Assembly: GCA_002238765.1 (NCBI GenBank)
Contig: MPMZ01000007.1
Location: forward strand, 1 to 64,000
DNA length: 64,000 nucleotides
Reading direction: 5' to 3'
Origin: Nitrospira sp. bin75
GTDB taxonomy: Bacteria > Nitrospirota > Nitrospiria > Nitrospirales > UBA8639
Below, in pieces: positions 7,891 through 55,230 of this stretch (within the stretch, counting starts at the first letter, position 1; every line of letters starts with the position of its first letter). The translations under genes and the position numbers were made by a program. The notes under the pieces are model-generated. The model saw nothing but the letters and a program-made list of their open reading frames with translations, was not told where the DNA came from and ran no database searches.

Positions 7891-8253
7891 GGGCAACCCA
7901 ACGAACGTTGGTCTTGGCAAGGAACCCGATGGTGAAACGAGAACGTGGCCCGGGTTTCGTCCCGGCCCGTGACGTCCGCCATGTCGAAACGACCGGAAGC
8001 GATTCTAGGCCCACCCTCCGGAAATCTCAACAGATTTTATAACGATTGGTTTATAATGTGTGCCGCCTGTCTTTCACTCCCCCCTTGAGGGGGAGTCGGG
8101 AAGCCAAGGGCACAGCCCGCCGGCGAACCGGTGGGGGCTATAGGGACAGGCCCTTGGACCTGCCTTCCGGCTGATTCGGGACGGCACGGGGGCCGTCCCC
8201 TACACAGTTAACGCTTGGAGTTTGCCGGAGAGCGATGCTATAGTCTCGCCGTT
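7891..8253 (+). promoter_or_regulatory. Intergenic region with two hairpins and promoter of the CARF-like gene
   Basis: There is no gene here. Hairpin ACTCCCCC/GGGGGAGT spans 8076-8096 and a second, GGGACGGC/GCCGTCCC, spans 8178-8199. Both look like dispersed extragenic repeats. A promoter for the next gene fits TTGGAG at 8215-8220, an 18-base spacer and TATAGT at 8239-8244. The predicted start near 8251 is only a few bases before the ATG at 8254, so the mRNA would be almost leaderless. Confidence 0.45.
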
Positions 8254-9513
8254 ATGAGCGGGGAATATCGGACCAAAGCGTTACTCATCGCGGTTTCCGG
8301 GGACCCTGTCCCGGTGCAGGCGTGCATCAACCGGCTCATCCCGGAGTTTCTCTGTTTCGTGGTGTCCGAATCCCGGAAAGCCTCCATCGAAGCCGACATT
8401 CAACCGGCCATCACCACAATGCCGCAGCGATGGGATTGGATTCTCGTGGAAGAGTCCGACAGTTTTACGGCCAGCCATCAAACATTAACCAAAAGCCTTC
8501 CCGACATGCTGAAGACCTGGGGGCTGAAACCAGGAGAATTCGTCCTGGACTTCAGCAGGGCCACGCCGGCCATCGCCGCGGCAATGGCGCTCGCCGGCCG
8601 GCCGTGGACCTCGCAAGTCGTTGGCTTGACCACGCCGGAGAGCGACACGGGGAAGAGTGACGTGGTTGCGGTCGGAGACCGGACCTTCGCCTGGCAAGAA
8701 GGGAATCCTTGGAACGAAGAAGCCGTACAGGCCCGGCAGGAGGCGGCCCTGTTATTTAATCAAGGGGCATTTCCCTCGGCGGCCAAACGGTTTCGACGCA
8801 TTGAATCCTTGGTCGGAGGAAGCCTCAAACCGTTGTATCACGCCCTGGCGAATTTGGCCGATGGCTATGCCGCCTGGGAAGGCTTCAAGTACCGGGACGC
8901 CTGGGACAAACTCAAAACCGCGCTCAAAGCCTTGGAATTGGCCTCGGTCTGGGGCGGGCCACCCGGCATGTCCTCCTTACTGGCCGGGGTCAAACAAAAC
9001 CTGAAGTTTTTGGAAAGCATCGTCATGAACCCCGACGACGTCAAACTCCCCGTGGCGCATGATTTACTCGCCCATGCCAAACGACGCGCGGAACGTGATC
9101 AGCAAATCGACTCGGCCCTTCAACTGTTACTGCGAGCCCTGGAAGCCTATGCCCAGTACCACTTGTGGAAACAGTATGGAATCAAAAGCTGGGACGTGCA
9201 GGTTGACCAATTACCGCAGGATCTGCAGGAACCCTGTCGCACCTGCTATGCCAGCGACGTGGACGGCAAGTTTCACCTGCCGCTCGAGGCCCAATTTCGC
9301 GCCCTGGCCGGGCTGGGCCATCCCATGGGGCAAACCTTCGTGAACGAGTGGACCAAGATCAAGACCTTGTGGGATGCGGCCCATCAGAGCGTCCTGGGTC
9401 ATGGATTCCAAACCACGAAAGCCGACCGGTTTCACCAGTTCTATGCCGCGGCCATCAAACTGACCAACGTCACCGAACCCAACTTGCCGGCCTTCCCGAA
9501 GATGACGTTGTAA
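8254..9513 (+). CDS. CARF-like (Cas02710-like) protein with degenerate HEPN-type motif
   Basis: A 419-residue protein. Residues 6-115 look like a Rossmann-type CARF domain: strand ALLIAVSGDP, then LDFSRATPAI at 98-107, where the ring-nucleotide-binding motif DxTGGTK would sit. A helical middle (LADGYAAWEGFKYRDAW) and a C-terminal HQSVLGHGF resemble the TIGR02710/Cas02710 family of CRISPR ancillary RNases. The usual HEPN Arg (R-N-x-S-x-L-x-H) is Ala376 here, and the CARF Lys is Pro. If the assignment is right, ligand binding and RNase activity may be altered or lost. No type III cas genes are in the window. The start was chosen from promoter position and homology. Confidence 0.6.
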   Translation: MSGEYRTKALLIAVSGDPVPVQACINRLIPEFLCFVVSESRKASIEADIQPAITTMPQRWDWILVEESDSFTASHQTLTKSLPDMLKTWGLKPGEFVLDFSRATPAIAAAMALAGRPWTSQVVGLTTPESDTGKSDVVAVGDRTFAWQEGNPWNEEAVQARQEAALLFNQGAFPSAAKRFRRIESLVGGSLKPLYHALANLADGYAAWEGFKYRDAWDKLKTALKALELASVWGGPPGMSSLLAGVKQNLKFLESIVMNPDDVKLPVAHDLLAHAKRRAERDQQIDSALQLLLRALEAYAQYHLWKQYGIKSWDVQVDQLPQDLQEPCRTCYASDVDGKFHLPLEAQFRALAGLGHPMGQTFVNEWTKIKTLWDAAHQSVLGHGFQTTKADRFHQFYAAAIKLTNVTEPNLPAFPKMTL

Positions 9514-9899: not shown

Positions 9900-10175
9900 C
9901 GTGCGCCTCCTGTCATCCTCGACATCCTTAATCGAGGATCCAGTGTCTTTGTTTTTTCTTTTGTAACGGCGCCATCCCTGTTCAAAGACAGGGACATGCC
10001 GCATGGCGCTTCCTATTTCCTCCCCTTTGTAAGTGGGCGCATTTCCGAAGAGGGAATGCGGGTGGGGTAGAGGCATTCGCACCCTCTGGGAGAGGGCAGG
10101 GGTGAGGGTGATGCGAGGGTTGAGCGAGGACACAACGCCGCCATGCGCCCCATAGTGCCATAAATCAGCGGTTCC
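9900..10175. repeat. Repeat-containing intergenic region
   Basis: No gene is seen. The segment 10021-10080 (CCCTTTGTAAGTGGGCGCAT and onward to a GGGTGGGGTAGAGGCAT end) recurs in inverted orientation near 10840-10894 and, with few changes, at 54987-55041. A second unit at 9915-9950 (TCGAGGATCCAGTGTCTTTG) recurs inverted at 11094-11130. These are dispersed extragenic repeats. Confidence 0.6.
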
Positions 10176-10526: not shown

Positions 10527-11407
10527 CACGTCAGATTATAACCATGAGGAGAGAAATTTCCAGCGGGGAAAATCTGAGCCGGCACTTTATGTGTTCACTA
10601 ATTCGTTGACTGTTTCTACTCCACAACTCCCTCGCCCCTTGAGGGAGAGCCTGTCCTGAGCGTAGTCGAAGGGGGCTGGGGTGAGGGGGGGGCGGGCCTT
10701 GGAGGAAGCGTAGTCGAAGGGTACGGACGGGAACTGTTTCCGAAGAGGGAAAAGTTCGGAGGGAGAGGCATCTATTCCCCTCCTTTGTAAGGAGGGGCGA
10801 AGGGGAGGTAGAGGCATTTGCAGGCACCCGACGTTCGGACTCTACCCCACCCGCATTCCCTCTTCGGAAATGCGCCCACTTACAAAGGGGAGGGAACGAA
10901 AGAAGAAGACCCGCCAGGGGCGAGGGAGTTTTTGCTGAATGGGTCCTTGTGGATCATTTTCTGTCAATGAAGCATCCATTAATGCTTTTTGTGTCACCCT
11001 CAGGGCATTTACTGTCATTTTTGTGTCACTTTTGTGTCACGGCGGCATCAGAAGCGCCATGAGATGGCGCCGCTACAACGATAACGATAAAGCAAAGACA
11101 CTGGATCCCCGATCGAGCCGGGGATGACAAGAGGGGGGGAATCCCTCACCCAGCACCCACTACCAAATGGTCATCCTGAGCAACGCGAAGGATCTCGTAG
11201 TTGAAGCGTTCGGTTGTTGAACGAGAGATTCCTCGCTTCGCTCGGAATGACAATTCTAGTGTGGTCAACTCCTCATTCTGGCAACTCGGCACATGCCAGT
11301 AAACGGTTTCAAAAGAGACCCCTGGCAAGGTAAGATTGCGACACGATCGTGAAATGCGATCCGGTAAATATCCAAATCGCAAACCACATTCTGAAGCACA
11401 TATAAAA
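10527..11407. repeat. Repeat-rich intergenic region with MITE-like element
   Basis: I see no gene in these ~880 bases. Near 10591 the sequence TGTTCACTAATTCGTTGAC resembles the terminal repeat of the element at 54857-55111. A long imperfect hairpin spans 10774-10894 (GGGGAGGTAGAGG against CTCTACCCCACC; CCTTTGTAA against TTACAAAGG). TTTTGTGTCAC is repeated near 11010-11040. Positions 11170-11196 and 11224-11251 form an inverted pair (GTCATCCTGAG ... CTCGGAATGAC), a widely seen bacterial extragenic motif. The DUF5131 promoter must lie in the last ~80 bases. Confidence 0.6.
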
Positions 11408-12450: not shown

Positions 12451-12544
12451 AAAAAGGGCGACCCGTAGGTCGCCCCTGAATGTTGCGAATTCTCGCTTGT
12501 TAATCGTAGCGAAACCCGCCTATTCCCATGTGCTAACAGGTTCA
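12451..12544 (-). ncRNA. tracrRNA of the type II-C CRISPR system
   Basis: On the minus strand, 12535-12516 is a perfect 20-nt complement to the crRNA-sense repeat. Pairing continues with bulges through about 12497, giving a duplex with upper and lower stems. A small nexus-like hairpin GCGA-GAAT-UCGC follows, and then a strong terminator (stem 12456-12463/12468-12475, T5 at 12455-12451). A promoter fits TTGTTG (12578-12573), a 16-base spacer and TATAAT (12556-12551), giving a start near 12544 and a ~94-nt RNA. It is divergent from cas9. Confidence 0.85.
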
Positions 12545-12597: not shown

Positions 12598-13785
12598 GTG
12601 ATGTTTTCTTACAGAATGGGGCTGGACATCGGCACCAATTCCATTGGATGGAGCGTGTTGGAACTCAAGGCAGGCAAGCCATGTGCAGTGAGAGATGCTG
12701 GTGCCCGGATTTTCAGCGACGGGCGCGTTGACCAATCCAAAGCTACCTTGAAAGCCGACCGTCGCGCGGCTCGTTCGGCCCGCCGCCGCCACGACCACTA
12801 CAAACAACGACGGGCCTTTTTGCTGGACGAACTCACCAGGGCCGGGCTGTTTCCCGAAAGCCCCGAAGAACGCCACAAACTACAAACACGTGATCCTCTG
12901 AAGTTACGCGCCAATGCACTGACGGAAAAACTGGAGCCACACGAGATTGGCCGCGCCCTGTTTCACCTCAATCAGCGTCGGGGATTCAAAAGCAACCGGA
13001 AAGACAGAAGCAAGGAAACGACAAGCGGGATAGTCAGCAATTCCGTCACCGCTTTGTTGCGGGCAATGGGGTTGATGGAAGAAGGCTACAGCGCCGAGGC
13101 ATTCAAGGATCTGTCAAAAGAGGCCAAGAAAGCTGCTCGAGAGAAAGAACAGCGACAGAAAAAAGGGGCGCTTGAGAAATTAGGGCAGCAGAATGCTCTG
13201 ACTTTCGGACTTTTTCTCTGGCAACGGCGAGACAAAGGCGAACCTACCCGCGCACGCCAAAATAGCGACGTTAAACTTTATGACCTCTATCCGACTCGCG
13301 ACATGCTGGAGCATGAGTTTGATGCGATTTGGACGGCACAGGCCGGGTATCACCCCGAATTACTGACGGATCAAAAGCGCGAGCGGATCAGGACGGTTAT
13401 TTTCACCCAGCGCCACCTAAAACCCCAAAAAGTCGGAAAATGCACATACCTGCCGAACGAAGATCGGACGTTCCAGGCCATGCCAAGTTTTCAGCGCTAC
13501 CGGATTTATCAGGAAGTGAACAATCTGGAATGGACGACAAGCCGTGGCAAAAATCGGCTCATTGCGTATCCCGAGGCGAGGGACGCAATCGTGGACATGC
13601 TAGAACACCCTACGAACAAGAAGGGTGATGTAACCTTCAATAAAATGAAAAAAGTTCTAAAAAGCAGGAGATTGGCCGAAGGCGATTTTCAGTTTAACTT
13701 TGAAACGCTGAAACGCAAAGGACTTGACGGCAACCACACGTCCAACCTGATGCAAGATGAAAGCCGTGTCGGGCCAATTTGTTAG
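12598..13785 (+). pseudogene. cas9: Cas9 (type II-C), N-terminal part, frameshifted
   Basis: Reads GTG-ATG after an AAAAAGGAG ribosome site. RuvC-I is MGLDIGTNSIGWSV with the catalytic Asp10, followed by the Arg-rich bridge helix (DRRAARSARRRHDHY) and REC lobe sequence. The frame closes at TAG 13783-13785 after residue 395. The continuation lies one base out of register and overlaps by 29 bases. In II-C relatives a G-x-x-W-x-x-L stretch of about ten residues follows this point; it is missing here, which suggests a small out-of-frame deletion rather than a simple base-call error. All catalytic motifs survive across the two frames. Confidence 0.85.
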
Positions 13786-15880
13786 CGTCATTATGAATGA
13801 TGAACTGGACGACCAGAATGTCCACGATGACCTGATGCGGAATTATGGCCTCAGCGACGCGGCGGCAACGGCATGCGTCGAGGCTCCGCTGAAGGATGGA
13901 ACAGCGTCATTGTCAAGCAAGGCCGCACGCTTGCTACTTGCAAAAATGCGTGATGACAAGCTTGTCCAGACGGACGCCGTACAGACCGTGGCAAAAGAGG
14001 AAACTGATTTCGTCAACCCCTTCAAACGAGCCGGTGCAGGCACATTGTTGGACCGCTTGCCTTATTACGGCATGGCCGTGCAAGGCCATATCATTCTTGG
14101 CAAAGGTGATGAAAAAGATGAACAGGCACGGATTGGCATGGTCGCCAACCCCACGGTGCATATCGCACTGAATCAGATCCGCCATGTGGTAAATGAATTG
14201 ATCGCCCGTTATGGCCATCCGGCTTCCATCGCTATTGAACTGGGACGTGAGCTACCCGCCGGACAAGAAGGTCGCGCCGAGATTAACAAGGAACAGAAAG
14301 CAAATCAGGACAACAATGAGAGACTGGACAAAATCTTACACGAGCAGGTTCAAGCCAGCACCCCCGACAACCGCTTGCGTTTGCGGCTCTGGGAAGAATT
14401 GGACGGGGACCCGAATGGTCGCTGCTGTCCTTTTTCCGGACAGAAAATAGGCATTGCTGACCTGTTCAACGGCCAAGCCGAGATCGAACACCTGATCCCA
14501 TTCAGCAAGTCGCTGGATGACAGCCGGGCAAACAAAGTGATTTGCACCCGTCAGGCCAACCGCGATAAGGGCAATCAAACGCCCTATCAGGCTTTTGGCT
14601 TTAGCCCGGATGGTTACAATTGGGACAAAATTTTTGAACGTCGTACAAAGCTGCCACAGAGTAAACAGTGGCGTTTCCAGAAAGATGCGTTGGAAATATG
14701 GTATCGCAAACATGCCGACTTTACCGAACGCCATTTGAACGATACTCGCTATATCGGCCGGCTGGCCAGGGAATACTTGGAGAATATCTGCCCGTTCAAC
14801 AAGATTGACGTTCTGACGGGGCGACTTACGGCCCTATTGCGGGGACATTGGGGATTGAACAGCGTCCTAGGCGACCACAACCAAACTCAAGGAACAAAAA
14901 AGAACCGCAACGACCACCGCCATCATGCGGTGGATGCCATTGTGATCGGCATGACTTCACGCTCCATGCTGCAAAAAGTTGCCGCTGCTGCCAACCGCGC
15001 CGAAAAACTTCACCTTGGCCGACTGTTTGAGAGAAGTGCCAACGGTAAAAACCCGATTGACCCGTGGTCCGGCTTCCGCAATCACGTGAAAGAAATCGTG
15101 AACAAGATAGTCGTTTCGCATAAGCCGAAAAGGAAAACTCTGGGCAAGAATACAACCGACGGCCAACTGCACAACGACACAGCGTATGGCATCATTTCTG
15201 GGCCGGACAATCAAGGATGTTATAGAGTGGTTGTGCGCTGTCCGATTAAAGAATTCGAAAAGCGTAGTGATGTGGAAGCTATCCGTGATAAACACTTGCA
15301 ACACGAATTTTTGCAAGCTTTTGATGCAGAGAGAACGGCCGGTGTTGCCCGTCTTGCAAGGGACAAAAAAATAAGACGTTTAAGACGAACCGAAACCTTG
15401 AGTGTCATTCCCATCAGGGATAAATTCGGTAGGACCTATAAAGCTTATAAAGGCGATAGTAACTGGGGGATGGAGATTTATGAATATCCTAAAGGCCACG
15501 AAAAAGCCGGCAAATGGCGTGGGGAGGTTATCTCGCGCTATGAGGCCAATCAAGAAGGCTTTCGAACCGGTCAGACTCAAAAGCCTCACCCCGCTGCTCG
15601 GCTGGTCATGAGGGTCCAAAAAGAAGACTGCGTTGAAATTGAGCAAAACGGGATCAAGCAAATCATGCTGGTGCATAAACTGTCGAAGCCCGGGCGTCTA
15701 GATCTCGCACCGCATAACGAAGCAAACGTAGCTGCCAGACATCGTGACAAGAATGATCCGTTCAAATACCTCAACATACCAGCCAGCGGACTCAAGAGCA
15801 GCAATGCCCGCAAGGTGCATATCAGCCCGGCGGGGCGGTTAAGTTACGAAAATCGCCGTAACCCACGCCGGAAGCAGTAG
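13757..15880 (+). pseudogene. cas9: Cas9 (type II-C), C-terminal part
   Basis: A 707-residue frame continuing Cas9. RuvC-II is SIAIELGREL (Glu161 of this frame). HNH is IEHLIPFSKSLDDSRANKV with His245 and Asn259/Asn268. RuvC-III is HHAVDAIVIGM with His390 and Asp393. A PAM-interacting C-terminal region ends LAPHNEANVAARHR ... RKVHISPAGR. With the N-terminal part the total would be about 1090 residues, the II-C size. If translated alone from 13757 it would lack RuvC-I and the bridge helix and could not form a normal nuclease. cas1 begins 5 bases later. Confidence 0.88.
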
Positions 15881-15885
15881 CATTC

Positions 15886-16794
15886 ATGCCTGAACAGATT
15901 GTTGAAATCACCACGCCGGGTCTGCATCTCGCCAAGGAACGGGGCTTTTTGCAAATCAGGGACAAGGACGGTCTCATCGGACAGGTTTCGCTGGACGATA
16001 TCCTTGCAGTGATTGTCAGCGTACAAGGCTGTTCCATCTCGACCGTCCTCATGGATCAATTCAGCCAACGCAACATCATGCTGGTAGTATGCGGGAAAAA
16101 TTTTCTTCCCAGTTCTCTTATTCTGCCAGTTGCCGGCTATGGGCGGCAATTCCAGGTAATGCGAGCGCAGGTAAACTTGTCGGAACCTCGCCGGAAACGC
16201 GCTTGGCAGAAGATCGTCCGTGCCAAAATCCGCAACCAAGCCGACTTACTCACCCATGCCGGAAAAAATAGCCGCCAGCTTGTCAGGTTAATGGAAATGG
16301 TAAAATCCGGCGATCCTGAAAATTGCGAGGCACAGGCAGCACGTGTCTACTGGCAACGGCTATTCGGCAATGACTTCCGGCGCGACCACCAAGCAATAGG
16401 CTTGAACGCGGCACTGAATTACATTTATGCCGTAATACGGGCATGCGTGGCTCGTGGGGTGAGCGCAGCTGGCCTGCATCCTAGTTTCAGCCTATGTCAT
16501 AAGAACCCACAAAACCCGCTGAACCTTGTTGATGATCTCGTAGAACCCTTCCGGCCGATTGCCGACTATCTTGTATGGCAGAGCGATGCCAGCCGCTTTC
16601 AGGACCTCTCGCCGGCAATAAAGGCAAGCCTCTCAGCAATCACCACGCTGGTGCTTCCCCTAAGAGAAGAGGCTTCTCCCCTGTCATTGGCAGCAGTAAA
16701 GGTCTGTCGTTCATTCGCCAGTTACTGTCTTGGCGAAGCAGACGAGTTGTTGTTGCCCGCGCTACCCGCGACGCTAGACATTTCAGCCCCATGA
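15886..16794 (+). CDS. cas1: CRISPR integrase subunit Cas1 (type II)
   Basis: A 302-residue protein with the type II Cas1 layout: an N-terminal beta domain (FLQIRDKDGLIGQVSLDDI) and an all-helical C-terminal domain. The metal-site region includes Glu in CEAQAARVYWQRLFG, His in LHPSFSLCH and the acidic LVDDLVEPFRPIADYLV stretch. It joins protospacers into the array with Cas2. The start is 5 bases after the cas9 stop, and the stop overlaps the cas2 start (ATGA). Confidence 0.95.
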   Translation: MPEQIVEITTPGLHLAKERGFLQIRDKDGLIGQVSLDDILAVIVSVQGCSISTVLMDQFSQRNIMLVVCGKNFLPSSLILPVAGYGRQFQVMRAQVNLSEPRRKRAWQKIVRAKIRNQADLLTHAGKNSRQLVRLMEMVKSGDPENCEAQAARVYWQRLFGNDFRRDHQAIGLNAALNYIYAVIRACVARGVSAAGLHPSFSLCHKNPQNPLNLVDDLVEPFRPIADYLVWQSDASRFQDLSPAIKASLSAITTLVLPLREEASPLSLAAVKVCRSFASYCLGEADELLLPALPATLDISAP

Positions 16795-17132
16795 AGCGCC
16801 GGGAGCACCTCAGCCCTTATCGTATCATGTGGCTCTTTGTGATGTTTGATCTGCCCGTGGGCACCGAACAGGAAAGGAAGCAGGCGACGGGTTTTCGCAA
16901 CAGCCTGCTTGATCTCGGTTTTGAAATGTCACAATTTTCGGTTTATTTGAAATATTGCGCCTCCGGCGAGAAAGCTGAATCCGTTGGCAGTCGTATCCAG
17001 CACCGGATACCGTCTGGTGGGAAAGTAGATATTCTGACGATTACCGACAAGCAATTCGCAAACATGAAACGATTTTATGCTACAGGACAAACTAAAAAAG
17101 ACGGAAAGGTTACTCAACTGCATTTGTTTTGA
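16791..17132 (+). CDS. cas2: CRISPR adaptation protein Cas2 (type II)
   Basis: A 113-residue protein. YRIMWLFVMFDLPVGTEQER is the first ferredoxin-like strand with the characteristic Asp, followed by FSVYLKYC and a VDILTITDKQF segment, as in II-C Cas2. The ATG overlaps the cas1 stop; the longer upstream frame lies inside cas1. It is followed at once by a strong terminator and then the repeat array. Confidence 0.95.
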   Translation: MKRREHLSPYRIMWLFVMFDLPVGTEQERKQATGFRNSLLDLGFEMSQFSVYLKYCASGEKAESVGSRIQHRIPSGGKVDILTITDKQFANMKRFYATGQTKKDGKVTQLHLF

Positions 17133-17169
17133 AGGAGTTTTCTCTGCAGTCTGTAGAGAAAACTCCTTC
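17131..17169 (+). terminator. Bidirectional-type hairpin after cas2
   Basis: A perfect 15-bp inverted repeat, GAAGGAGTTTTCTCT (17131-17145) and its complement (17155-17169), has a 9-base loop. The stem begins within the cas2 stop codon. The stem carries A/T-rich tracts but no downstream T-run on the plus strand. It can end cas transcription and would also block array transcripts running leftward. Confidence 0.7.
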
Positions 17170-17194
17170 AAACATAAGGCCTTACAATGGACCC

Positions 17195-17428
17195 AGTCTA
17201 GCACATGGGAATAGGCGGTGCTAAGACAACTGATGTCTTCCAAGGGCACGCCGCCGTAGCAGTCTAGCACATGGGAATAGGCGGTGCTAAGACAACGATG
17301 CCTGGACGAATGAAGAAGTGATTGTCAGTCTAGCACATGGGAATAGGCGGTGCTAAGACAACATTAAAAGCAGTGTGTGGTTGCTGTGATTTAGTCTAGC
17401 ACATGGGAATAGGCGGTGCTAAGACAAC
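17195..17428 (-). CRISPR. Type II-C CRISPR array, four repeats and three spacers
   Basis: Four identical 36-nt repeats lie at 17195-17230, 17261-17296, 17327-17362 and 17393-17428, with three 30-nt spacers between them. On the minus strand the repeat starts GTTGTCTTAGCACC and ends GTGCTAGACT. That is the II-C crRNA sense, and it is complementary to the tracrRNA anti-repeat. The end TGCTAGACT resembles the extended -10 found inside Neisseria II-C repeats, so each crRNA may have its own promoter. To the right the array abuts a copied gpsA promoter with no room for a leader. Confidence 0.95.
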
Positions 17429-17576
17429 AGAATTGACCGCCCCGAAAGGCCGTTCCTATAATCCCGCACCCGTTTCCACGTCGCAAGAACGAAAGTGATG
17501 ACGACTTCTCTCCCAGCCATTCACACGGCGTCGGTTATTGGAGCGGGGGCCTGGGGCGCCACGCTTGCTCGCGACT
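17429..17576 (+). pseudogene. Truncated duplicate of gpsA promoter and 5' end
   Basis: About 145 bases align, with scattered differences, to 18917-19061, which is the promoter and first ~25 codons of the intact gpsA. The copied promoter is TTGACC, 18 bases, TATAAT. The copied start is ATG 17498, and the encoded IHTASVIGAGAWGATLAR is the GpsA NAD-binding N-terminus. Homology stops near 17576, before the DUF4143 gene. The copy begins exactly at the last CRISPR repeat. It cannot give an active enzyme. Confidence 0.9.
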
Positions 17577-17595: not shown

Positions 17596-18801
17596 TCATG
17601 ACAGTAACCAATCCTCAATCGGCATGGACAGGAAGGTTTCCACGGCAAGCCCGTCGCCGCCCACGAGCAGTTTTCTGGTCGGCTGAAACGCTTGGGCAAA
17701 AGCGGTCATTCCCGGCAGGGCGGGACGCGCGTGTCCGCTCTTCACTTCGATCGCCACGATGCGCTTGCCCGCCCGCACGACGAAATCCACCTCACGGTTG
17801 CGGTCCCGCCAATAAAAGACCTGACACGCTCCGCCAGCCGATGCGTTGACCAAGTGGGCACCCACGGCGGATTCCACCAGTCTTCCCCAGAACTCGCGGT
17901 TTGCGCGCGCTTCGGCCAGGGTCATCCCGGACTGGGCCGTCATCAGCGCCGTGTTGAACACCTGAAGCTTCGGGCTCGATCCTCGTTGCCGTGCCGCTGA
18001 GCCAGCATACTTTTGCAGACCGGTCAGCATCCCTGCACCCGCTAACAGTTCAAGGTAGTGGGCCAACGTTGTGGTGTTGCCCGAGTCCTGAAGTTGCCCC
18101 ACCATCTTGGTATAAGACAAGATCTGCCCCGAATAGACGCAACCAAGTTCGAACAGACGGCGTAGAAGCGCGGGCTTATCCACACGGGATAGTAACAGGA
18201 CATCACGAGCAATAGTCGTTTCGATAAGCGAGTCTCGAATATAGCGGGACCAGCGGGCCGGTTGTCTTGTCAACGGTTCGGCACCGGGGTACGCGCCGTA
18301 AAAAATGTACGTGTCCAGCGTCCAACCAAACGCTTCTCGCATCTCAGGGAAACTCCAGTGCGGCAGGTATAGAATCTCGAACCGGCCTGCCAAGCTCTCG
18401 GTCAACCCGCGCTGGATCAGGAGCGGGGCCGAACCCAGCAGCACCACTTTCAGCGGCCTGCGGAAACGGGTATCTTCGTCCCACAGGCGCTTGACGGTTT
18501 CTGACCAGCGCGGGACCTTCTGTATTTCATCCAGGACCAGAAGCGCACCTTCTTTTCCCGCCTTCGCGGCCAGCAATCGCGCAGCCTCCCACTGGACTTC
18601 TATCCAGTCGAAGCCCCGTAACGTCGGCTCGTCCGCACTGGCGATGTGATACGGTAGTCCGGCTTTCGCCGCCACCTGTGCAATCAGAGTGCTCTTTCCC
18701 ACCTGTCGCGCTCCGGCGATAACTTGGAGGAAGCGGCGAGGTTCATCGAGACGGCGCAACAGTTCGGTGGCATGAGGGCGAATGAATTCCGGTTTACTCA
18801 T
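17596..18801 (-). CDS. AAA+ ATPase with DUF4143 domain
   Basis: A 401-residue protein. Walker A is AGARQVGKSTL near residue 30, Walker B LLVLDEIQKVP near 88, and sensor I VVLLGSAPLL near 123. The DUF4143 C-terminal domain has the nuclease-like signature FYWRDRNREVDFVVRAGKRIVAIEVKSG, i.e. Glu-Val-Asp ... Glu-x-Lys. This large family has no settled function and travels with islands. It sits between the two gpsA copies, in the opposite direction. TGAGTA/TACTCA motifs are repeated around the start codon, and a TATAAT box overlaps it, so the start may be leaderless or slightly further in. Confidence 0.88.
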   Translation of the reverse strand: MSKPEFIRPHATELLRRLDEPRRFLQVIAGARQVGKSTLIAQVAAKAGLPYHIASADEPTLRGFDWIEVQWEAARLLAAKAGKEGALLVLDEIQKVPRWSETVKRLWDEDTRFRRPLKVVLLGSAPLLIQRGLTESLAGRFEILYLPHWSFPEMREAFGWTLDTYIFYGAYPGAEPLTRQPARWSRYIRDSLIETTIARDVLLLSRVDKPALLRRLFELGCVYSGQILSYTKMVGQLQDSGNTTTLAHYLELLAGAGMLTGLQKYAGSAARQRGSSPKLQVFNTALMTAQSGMTLAEARANREFWGRLVESAVGAHLVNASAGGACQVFYWRDRNREVDFVVRAGKRIVAIEVKSGHARPALPGMTAFAQAFQPTRKLLVGGDGLAVETFLSMPIEDWLLS

Positions 18802-18826: not shown

Positions 18827-18920
18827 AACTCGTAAAATGCAAATTCTTCGGAGAGGACGTGGTCGACGCAAGCGGGTATGATGCAGACGATGGATGGTTC
18901 TTGATTCGTTCTCTCAAGAA

Positions 18921-18950
18921 TTGACAGTCCCGGAAGGCCGTTCCTATAAT
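18921..18950 (+). promoter_or_regulatory. Sigma-70 promoter of gpsA
   Basis: TTGACA, an 18-base spacer and TATAAT (18945-18950) form a near-consensus promoter about 35 bases upstream of the gpsA GTG. The same promoter, with TTGACC as -35, is duplicated at 17433-17462 beside the CRISPR array. Confidence 0.8.
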
Positions 18951-18985
18951 CCCGCACCCGTTTCCACTTTGCAGGAACGAACGCG

Positions 18986-20035
18986 GTGACGACTTCTCTG
19001 CCTGACATTCACACGGCGTCGGTTATTGGAGCCGGTGCCTGGGGCACCACGCTGGCCCGCCATCTGGTGAACCAGGGGCTCACGGTCAAGCTCTGGGCCT
19101 ATGAAAAGGAGGTGGTCGGGAGCATCAATCTCAAAGGGGAAAATGCCTTGTTTTTGCCGGGCGTCACCCTTCCCGAGGCGCTCTCAGCCACGCATTCTCT
19201 TCAGGACGCGGCTGCCGGCACCGGCTTGATCGTGCTGGCCGTGCCTTCTCATGCCATGCGACCGGTGATCCGGGAATTGACACCCTCTCTGTCCGAGCCT
19301 CTTCCGATTGTCGTGGCATCGAAGGGGATTGAAGAAGAGTCGAATCAATTGATGTCCCAGGTGCTCAACGAACTGCTGCCTCCCGACTGGGCCAGAAAGA
19401 TCACCGTCCTTACGGGGCCCAGCTTTGCCGCTGAAGTGAGCCGGGACAAACCCACGACCATTCTGTTGGCCGGTCAGGATTCCGGCCTCACGACTCACCT
19501 GCAAATGGCGCTCATGTCCGCATCCTTCCGGGTGTACACCGGAACGGATATGATCGGGGCGCAATTGGGAGGAGCGCTCAAGAACGTCATGGCCATTGCG
19601 GCCGGCGTGGTGGATGGCCTGGACTTGGGGCTGAATGCCAGGGCCGCGCTGATCACACGCGGATTGGCCGAGGTGATTCGACTGGGTGTCGCGCTCGGGG
19701 CCGACGTGCATACGTTCTATGGCCTTTCAGGGTTGGGGGACCTGGTATTGACCTGCACGGGCGCCTTGAGTCGCAACCATGCCGTGGGCCTGCAATTGGG
19801 CCGGGGCCGGCGGTTGGAGGATATTCTGAACGACACCGTCACGGTGGCCGAAGGCGTTCGGACCACCAAAGCCGCCATGGCGTTGGCTCAACGGGTTCAG
19901 GTGGACATGCCGATTGTCCAAGGCGTCCACGCGATGTTGTTCGACGGCACACCGCCCAAACAGATCGTCGCTGATCTGATGTCACGATCGGCCAAAGAAG
20001 AAACCCCGTTTTCGAGTTCCGGCCCCTCCGGCTGA
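18986..20035 (+). CDS. gpsA: NAD(P)-dependent glycerol-3-phosphate dehydrogenase
   Basis: A 349-residue cytoplasmic enzyme reducing dihydroxyacetone phosphate to sn-glycerol-3-phosphate for phospholipid synthesis. The N-terminal Rossmann motif is VIGAGAWGTTLA. The conserved VVASKGIE and VLTGPSFAAEV segments follow, then the catalytic Lys in GGALKNVMAIAAGVVDGL and the substrate loop GLSGLGDLVLTCTGALSRN. The GTG start is supported by the promoter and by homology at once after it. A truncated duplicate of its 5' end lies 1.5 kb upstream. Confidence 0.96.
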   Translation: MTTSLPDIHTASVIGAGAWGTTLARHLVNQGLTVKLWAYEKEVVGSINLKGENALFLPGVTLPEALSATHSLQDAAAGTGLIVLAVPSHAMRPVIRELTPSLSEPLPIVVASKGIEEESNQLMSQVLNELLPPDWARKITVLTGPSFAAEVSRDKPTTILLAGQDSGLTTHLQMALMSASFRVYTGTDMIGAQLGGALKNVMAIAAGVVDGLDLGLNARAALITRGLAEVIRLGVALGADVHTFYGLSGLGDLVLTCTGALSRNHAVGLQLGRGRRLEDILNDTVTVAEGVRTTKAAMALAQRVQVDMPIVQGVHAMLFDGTPPKQIVADLMSRSAKEETPFSSSGPSG

Positions 20036-54571: not shown

Positions 54572-55230
54572 TCCGCATCTCTCGCCGATTCCAGCCTGAG
54601 CGCGTTTCGTAGAATTGTAAATGTTCAGTCATTCCCTTCGACAGGCTCAGGACAGGCGTGGACAGCATGATGTGCTGACTATCGTCCCCCTCTTCTAGCG
54701 GCGCCATCTCATGGCGCGATCTTTCAGGCGGCCTTTCTTAGTGGAATGAGACGCCGCAGCTACGACGGCGGAGGGGCCGGGCCGCATGAGATGCGGCCCC
54801 TACAACTGCAAACCAAAACAAAACCCTGGCTCCCCGATCGGAGTCGGGATTGTAAATGTTCAGTCATTCATTGACACGTTCCGCGGTCTCCTTCTGTGCC
54901 TCAGTGCCCCGCCTTTGTAAGGAGGGGCAAGGGGAGGTAGAAGATGTGGCAGGAACAGCGCAACCCTGTGCCCCATGGACACGTGGCTCTACCCCACCCG
55001 CATTCCCTCTCCGGAAATGCGCCCCCTTACAAAGGGGAGGGAAAAGAAAGCCCTTCTTTCTGGTTCCCACTTTGTGGGCAGTTCCTCAGTCTGTCAACGA
55101 ATGACTGAACACCTACAAGGATGACAGACGAGGCGCATTTTAGGTGTATTTTGGTGTATAAATAGCTCTGTTTTACCGCATTTATGACTACTTTTGGTGC
55201 ACTTTTGTTGCAGATTTGCGCCATATGGCG
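54572..55230. repeat. Repeat-rich intergenic region
   Basis: No gene. It contains a solitary half-element near 54619 (TGTTCAGTCATTC), palindromes around GGCGCCATCTCATGGCGC (54700-54718) and GGGCCGCATGAGATGCGGCCC (54780-54800), and the MITE-like element 54857-55111. The last 120 bases repeat TTTTGGTG-type motifs. Confidence 0.6.
54857..55111. mobile_element. MITE-like element with 20-bp inverted terminal repeats
   Basis: Left end TGTTCAGTCATTCATTGACA (54857-54876) and right end 55092-55111 are inverted copies with one mismatch, bounding 255 bases without coding capacity. Inside, 54907-54940 and 54987-55041 form a second, longer inverted pair (CCTTTGTAA ... TTACAAAGG; GGGGAGGTAGA ... TCTACCCC). 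A related, more degraded copy lies at about 10590-10980. No clear target-site duplication is visible. Confidence 0.6.

Follow-up and report, generated by a model that had tools for sequence, protein, structure and literature searches.

The window, i.e., the whole stretch of 64,000 nucleotides that was analysed, belongs to a metagenome-derived Nitrospira genome (sp. bin75, 115 contigs) and contains a compact CRISPR-Cas locus made up of a tracrRNA gene, cas9 in two frames, cas1, cas2 and a CRISPR array (Table 1). In the ORF lists, cas1 and cas2 are the only genes between cas9 and the array, with neither csn2 nor cas4, and the label type II-C-like is suggested by this gene content, by size and by the best PDB matches. 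The block upstream of cas9 that was assigned to the tracrRNA is kept in all five aligned loci; its anti-repeat is complementary to the CRISPR repeat, its minus-strand fold has a z-score of -4.07 and a terminator-like site was predicted there. An Rfam search of this region returned nothing relevant. Judging from the anti-repeat, the crRNA would be read from the minus strand, and the genome has a gene for RNase III. No other cas9 was found in the genome above the cut-off of the Cas9 model (one weak sub-threshold match lies on a different contig) and no second cas1 accompanies the single Cas1 match, so that a complementing copy was not found.

Table 1. Positions of the locus features in the window
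Feature	Positions	Strand	Remarks
tracrRNA gene	12454..12536	-	block upstream of cas9, anti-repeat, fold, terminator-like site; extent inferred
tracrRNA, anti-repeat	12516-12536	-
tracrRNA, middle hairpin		-
tracrRNA, terminator hairpin stem	12454-12477	-	followed by T run
cas9, N-terminal fragment	12601..13785	+	RuvC-I, bridge helix, part of recognition lobe
Deletion junction, 35 bases, frame-shifting	13775..13776	+	alignment with G009
cas9, C-terminal fragment	13757..15880	+	homology from 13778: rest of recognition lobe, RuvC-II, HNH, RuvC-III, C-terminal domain
cas1	15886..16794	+	302 aa, intact
cas2	16794..17132	+	about 112 aa, intact
CRISPR array	17195..17428	.	4 identical 36-base repeats, 3 spacers of 30 bases

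Relatives, array and neighbourhood

Among the 14 genomes of the genus that were searched, cas9 was matched in five, the window's own and four others. The relatives, some of them named metagenome-assembled genomes of Nitrospira, are G001 (L011, Nitrospira sp. isolate CO36405bin_1), G007 (L012, Nitrospirales bacterium PNGst_C_binSS2), G011 (L017, Nitrospira sp. RHO3_bin_20) and G009 (L018). All four have an intact II-C-like Cas9 in a single uninterrupted frame of 1120-1140 codons, and share with the window the gene order, the catalytic motifs, the tracrRNA block, the repeat family and a cas1 of the same length. The position of the locus upstream of gpsA is also shared by G001, G009 and G011, the three for which this flank was seen. 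When genes of the four loci were tested, 15 of 16, 13 of 17, 11 of 13 and 2 of 5 matched the window, and in each case cas9 was the sole gene that needed two window ORFs, all other matches needing one. A near-identical genome showing the ancestral allele was not found, the cas9 DNA being about 20% different from that of the nearest relatives. In G007, a 249-base tandem duplication (L012, 1534-2031) covers the tracrRNA region together with the beginning of cas9.

The arrays of the relatives are longer, with 22 repeats in G009, 21 in G001, 7 in G011 and at least 7 in G007 (where the contig ends) versus 4 in the window, and with 6-21 spacers versus 3. The last repeat is directly followed by a duplicate of the gpsA promoter and 5′ end, a sequence that lies farther from the array in G001 and G009; this may mean that the array was shortened, and is not proof of decay. 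None of the three spacers had an exact match in viral contigs, one of the three gave weak partial matches alone when compared with phages (best E 0.6), and no relatives of the C-terminal Cas9 piece were found in the viral contigs.

Several further features were seen in the window. The gpsA promoter and 5′ end occur twice (17429-17572 and 18917-19060, 88% identical), and a DUF4143/AAA ATPase gene (17596-18801, PADLOC model PDC-S01) lies between the two copies; G011 has the same ATPase beside its array and lacks the first copy of gpsA, and no match to the ATPase was found at that place in G001 and G009. A near-perfect inverted repeat of 22 bases (17128-17172) lies between cas2 and the array; it is present in altered form in all four relatives and is perhaps a two-way terminator or a leader element. 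A gene for a CARF-HEPN (Csx1/Csm6-like) protein at 8215-9513 stands alone, as no Cas10 in the genome exceeded the cut-off of the Csm1 model (one weak match was seen); its homologues occur in the same neighbourhood of G001 and G009. Finally, a 57-base sequence that occurs three times (10016-10072, 10840-10896 and 54987-55043; one copy inverted, 96-98% alike) may be a small mobile element or an intergenic repeat.

The two cas9 frames and the 35-base deletion

The initial annotation described a cas9 whose N-terminal frame stops at 13785 and whose C-terminal frame starts at 13757, one base out of register, and the ORF list agrees, with ORFs at 12598-13785 (395 aa) and 13757-15880 (707 aa). The homologues begin at the position of the ATG at 12601 (MFSYR), so that translation probably does not start at the GTG at 12598. 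Compared with the TIGR01865 profile, the N-terminal frame covers positions 1-344 (240.1 bits) and the C-terminal frame positions 398-1070 (364.1 bits).

G009, the closest relative around the lesion, served as the reference for the deletion, and its alignment with the window contains one gap of exactly 35 bases with clean homology on both flanks. A deletion had been proposed before, at roughly 30 bases, and is thus confirmed at a slightly larger size, as is the opinion that a simple miscalled base was not responsible. Since 35 is not divisible by three, the frame shifts and the last two thirds of cas9 are left out of frame; two out-of-frame codons follow the junction and translation is ended by the TAG at 13783-13785, which is codon 395 counted from the ATG at 12601. 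An ATG of the C-terminal frame lies at 13793, a few bases beyond this stop. No repeat or homopolymer was seen in the alignment at the junction.

The lost segment amounts to about 12 residues and begins just before the Trp of the G-x-x-W motif. It had been placed after this motif; its absence holds, and the Trp of the motif itself has gone with it. All eight intact homologues have both the Gly and the Trp unchanged, and in none of the eight is the segment naturally missing, which had been named as one of two observations that would speak against a deletion. On the L012 protein, the segment corresponds to a short helix (393-397) and to the beginning of a second one (400-412), both predicted in a weak model that was built from 8 sequences, with a mean pLDDT of 57.9 and a pTM of 0.33. 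The gene in the window therefore carries a disabling lesion relative to intact homologues, the mark of a pseudogene, and lacks the one uninterrupted frame with a complete recognition lobe that is expected of a functional Cas9.

The gene (12601-15880) is also a mosaic. Its first two thirds resemble G007 and G009, the N-terminal part having 64% DNA identity to G001, and beyond about 14740 its identity to G001 is 78-95% when measured over 60 codons at a time, a pattern that points to allele exchange by recombination. The closest relative also shifts from G007 to G009 near the lesion. It is not claimed that the deletion lies on such a breakpoint or arose by recombination between cas9 alleles, because there it is G007 that has diverged, with an insertion of its own past the lesion point, and the clear switch, to G001, occurs near 14740 and not at the lesion.

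Constraint and the age of the break

The two pieces, when joined, run for 1093 codons without a further stop or frameshift. The motifs LDIGTNS, IAIELGREL and DHRHHAVDA were found by a script and the EIEHLIPFS motif by alignment, and the protein matches Pfam HNH_4 and RuvC_III in addition to TIGR01865, in line with the earlier statement that the RuvC and HNH residues were kept. Only 3 of 207 otherwise invariant positions are changed, versus 5-10 of 213-218 in the intact relatives, whose counts were made likewise with one fewer comparison sequence. The missing extra stop, the few changes at invariant positions and the retained catalytic motifs together argue that normal constraint acted on the gene until recently, and the earlier view that the loss is recent is borne out by the same counts.

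Under neutral substitution, the probability that no stop would have arisen is 50% at a divergence of 0.005-0.007 and is down to 0.05 at 0.023-0.028 (kappa 1-4). If the gene has been unselected, the neutral divergence since the break is at most about 2-3%; this bound presupposes that there was no selection after the break, and is void if the gene is still selected as two pieces. Pairwise dN/dS was rejected as a means of dating the lesion, since the range for pairs that include the window (0.10-0.22) overlaps that for pairs of intact relatives (0.13-0.23); for the N-terminal part, synonymous sites were saturated in 5 of 10 pairs, which gave no value.

Alternative readings and the failing locus

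Most likely, this is a type II-C-like locus whose cas9 was recently inactivated when 35 bases were lost from the part that encodes the recognition lobe and the frame was shifted. What is observed is this deletion in comparison with four relatives, together with unbroken neighbours and no further damage; the loss of function and the fixation of the deletion in the population are inferred. Translation from 12601 would pass codon P (13774-13776), add two wrong residues and stop at 13785, and the resulting fragment would be devoid of HNH, RuvC-II and RuvC-III. Target cutting by the locus would not be expected without an intact Cas9, and the remaining parts, i.e., tracrRNA, cas1, cas2 and array, appear to be still undecayed. 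To judge from other type II systems, new spacers would probably not be selected properly either.

It is rather unlikely that the deletion belongs to a variant strain or stems from a local misassembly, with the dominant Cas9 of the population intact. The genome is in many contigs and its cas9 is a mosaic of relatives, as a chimeric strain assembly might also yield; however, the junction has no repeat or homopolymer, a loss of 35 bases is untypical of base-calling errors, and cas9 is the sole split gene of the region compared, its unbroken neighbours speaking against an assembly riddled with errors throughout.

It is very improbable that the two frames encode a functional Cas9 in two pieces, joined on the guide RNA, whose second piece is made by reinitiation at 13757 or 13793. 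Both frames are otherwise undamaged and retain the invariant residues, the ATG just past the stop makes reinitiation conceivable, and, according to excerpts of a study on engineered split SpCas9 (PMC6098869), the two parts of a divided Cas9 come together on the sgRNA and are active. In the window, in contrast, about 12 conserved residues including the invariant Trp are gone and the break looks accidental; moreover, none of the four same-genus relatives is split, no Shine-Dalgarno-like sequence was seen by eye before 13757 or 13793, and the arrangement is known from a single genome. Slightly less credible still is a natural two-piece Cas9 on tracrRNA:crRNA, its C-terminal fragment made by termination-reinitiation, which would perhaps bind DNA but not cut it because the recognition lobe lacks one helix. 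Programmed frameshifting, for which the overlap of the frames (13757-13785) might be cited, has next to no probability, since the fused product would still be short of about 11 to 12 residues, the overlap was made by the deletion itself (the relatives have one frame) and no slippery heptamer was seen by eye.

The recent inactivation of cas9 has parallels. In the excerpted text of a survey of mollicutes (PMC6882279), at least 8 of the 21 systems were regarded as inactivated or degraded, and the cas9 of Mycoplasma arthritidis, like that of the window, was broken by a frameshift leading to an early UAG stop, at residue 394; the similarity to codon 395 here is taken as coincidence. Unlike the window, the case described in these excerpts concerned different bacteria and had a self-targeting spacer. 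When the three spacers of the window were compared with their own genome, allowing up to 3 mismatches, each matched only itself, and self-targeting was therefore rejected as the cause of the cas9 loss.

No report of this locus was found among the 15 listed of 41 papers on Nitrospira with Cas9, which is not proof of its absence from print. The locus is one more case of a known kind of event, a frameshift-broken cas9 in an otherwise recognisable system, and the loss of this immune system seems ordinary and recent. Anyone who wishes to take this sequence as a source of Cas9 should verify the frame beforehand. The locus offers a snapshot of a CRISPR-Cas9 system that is beginning to fail, in which the effector has gone first and the tracrRNA, the adaptation genes and the array are still whole.
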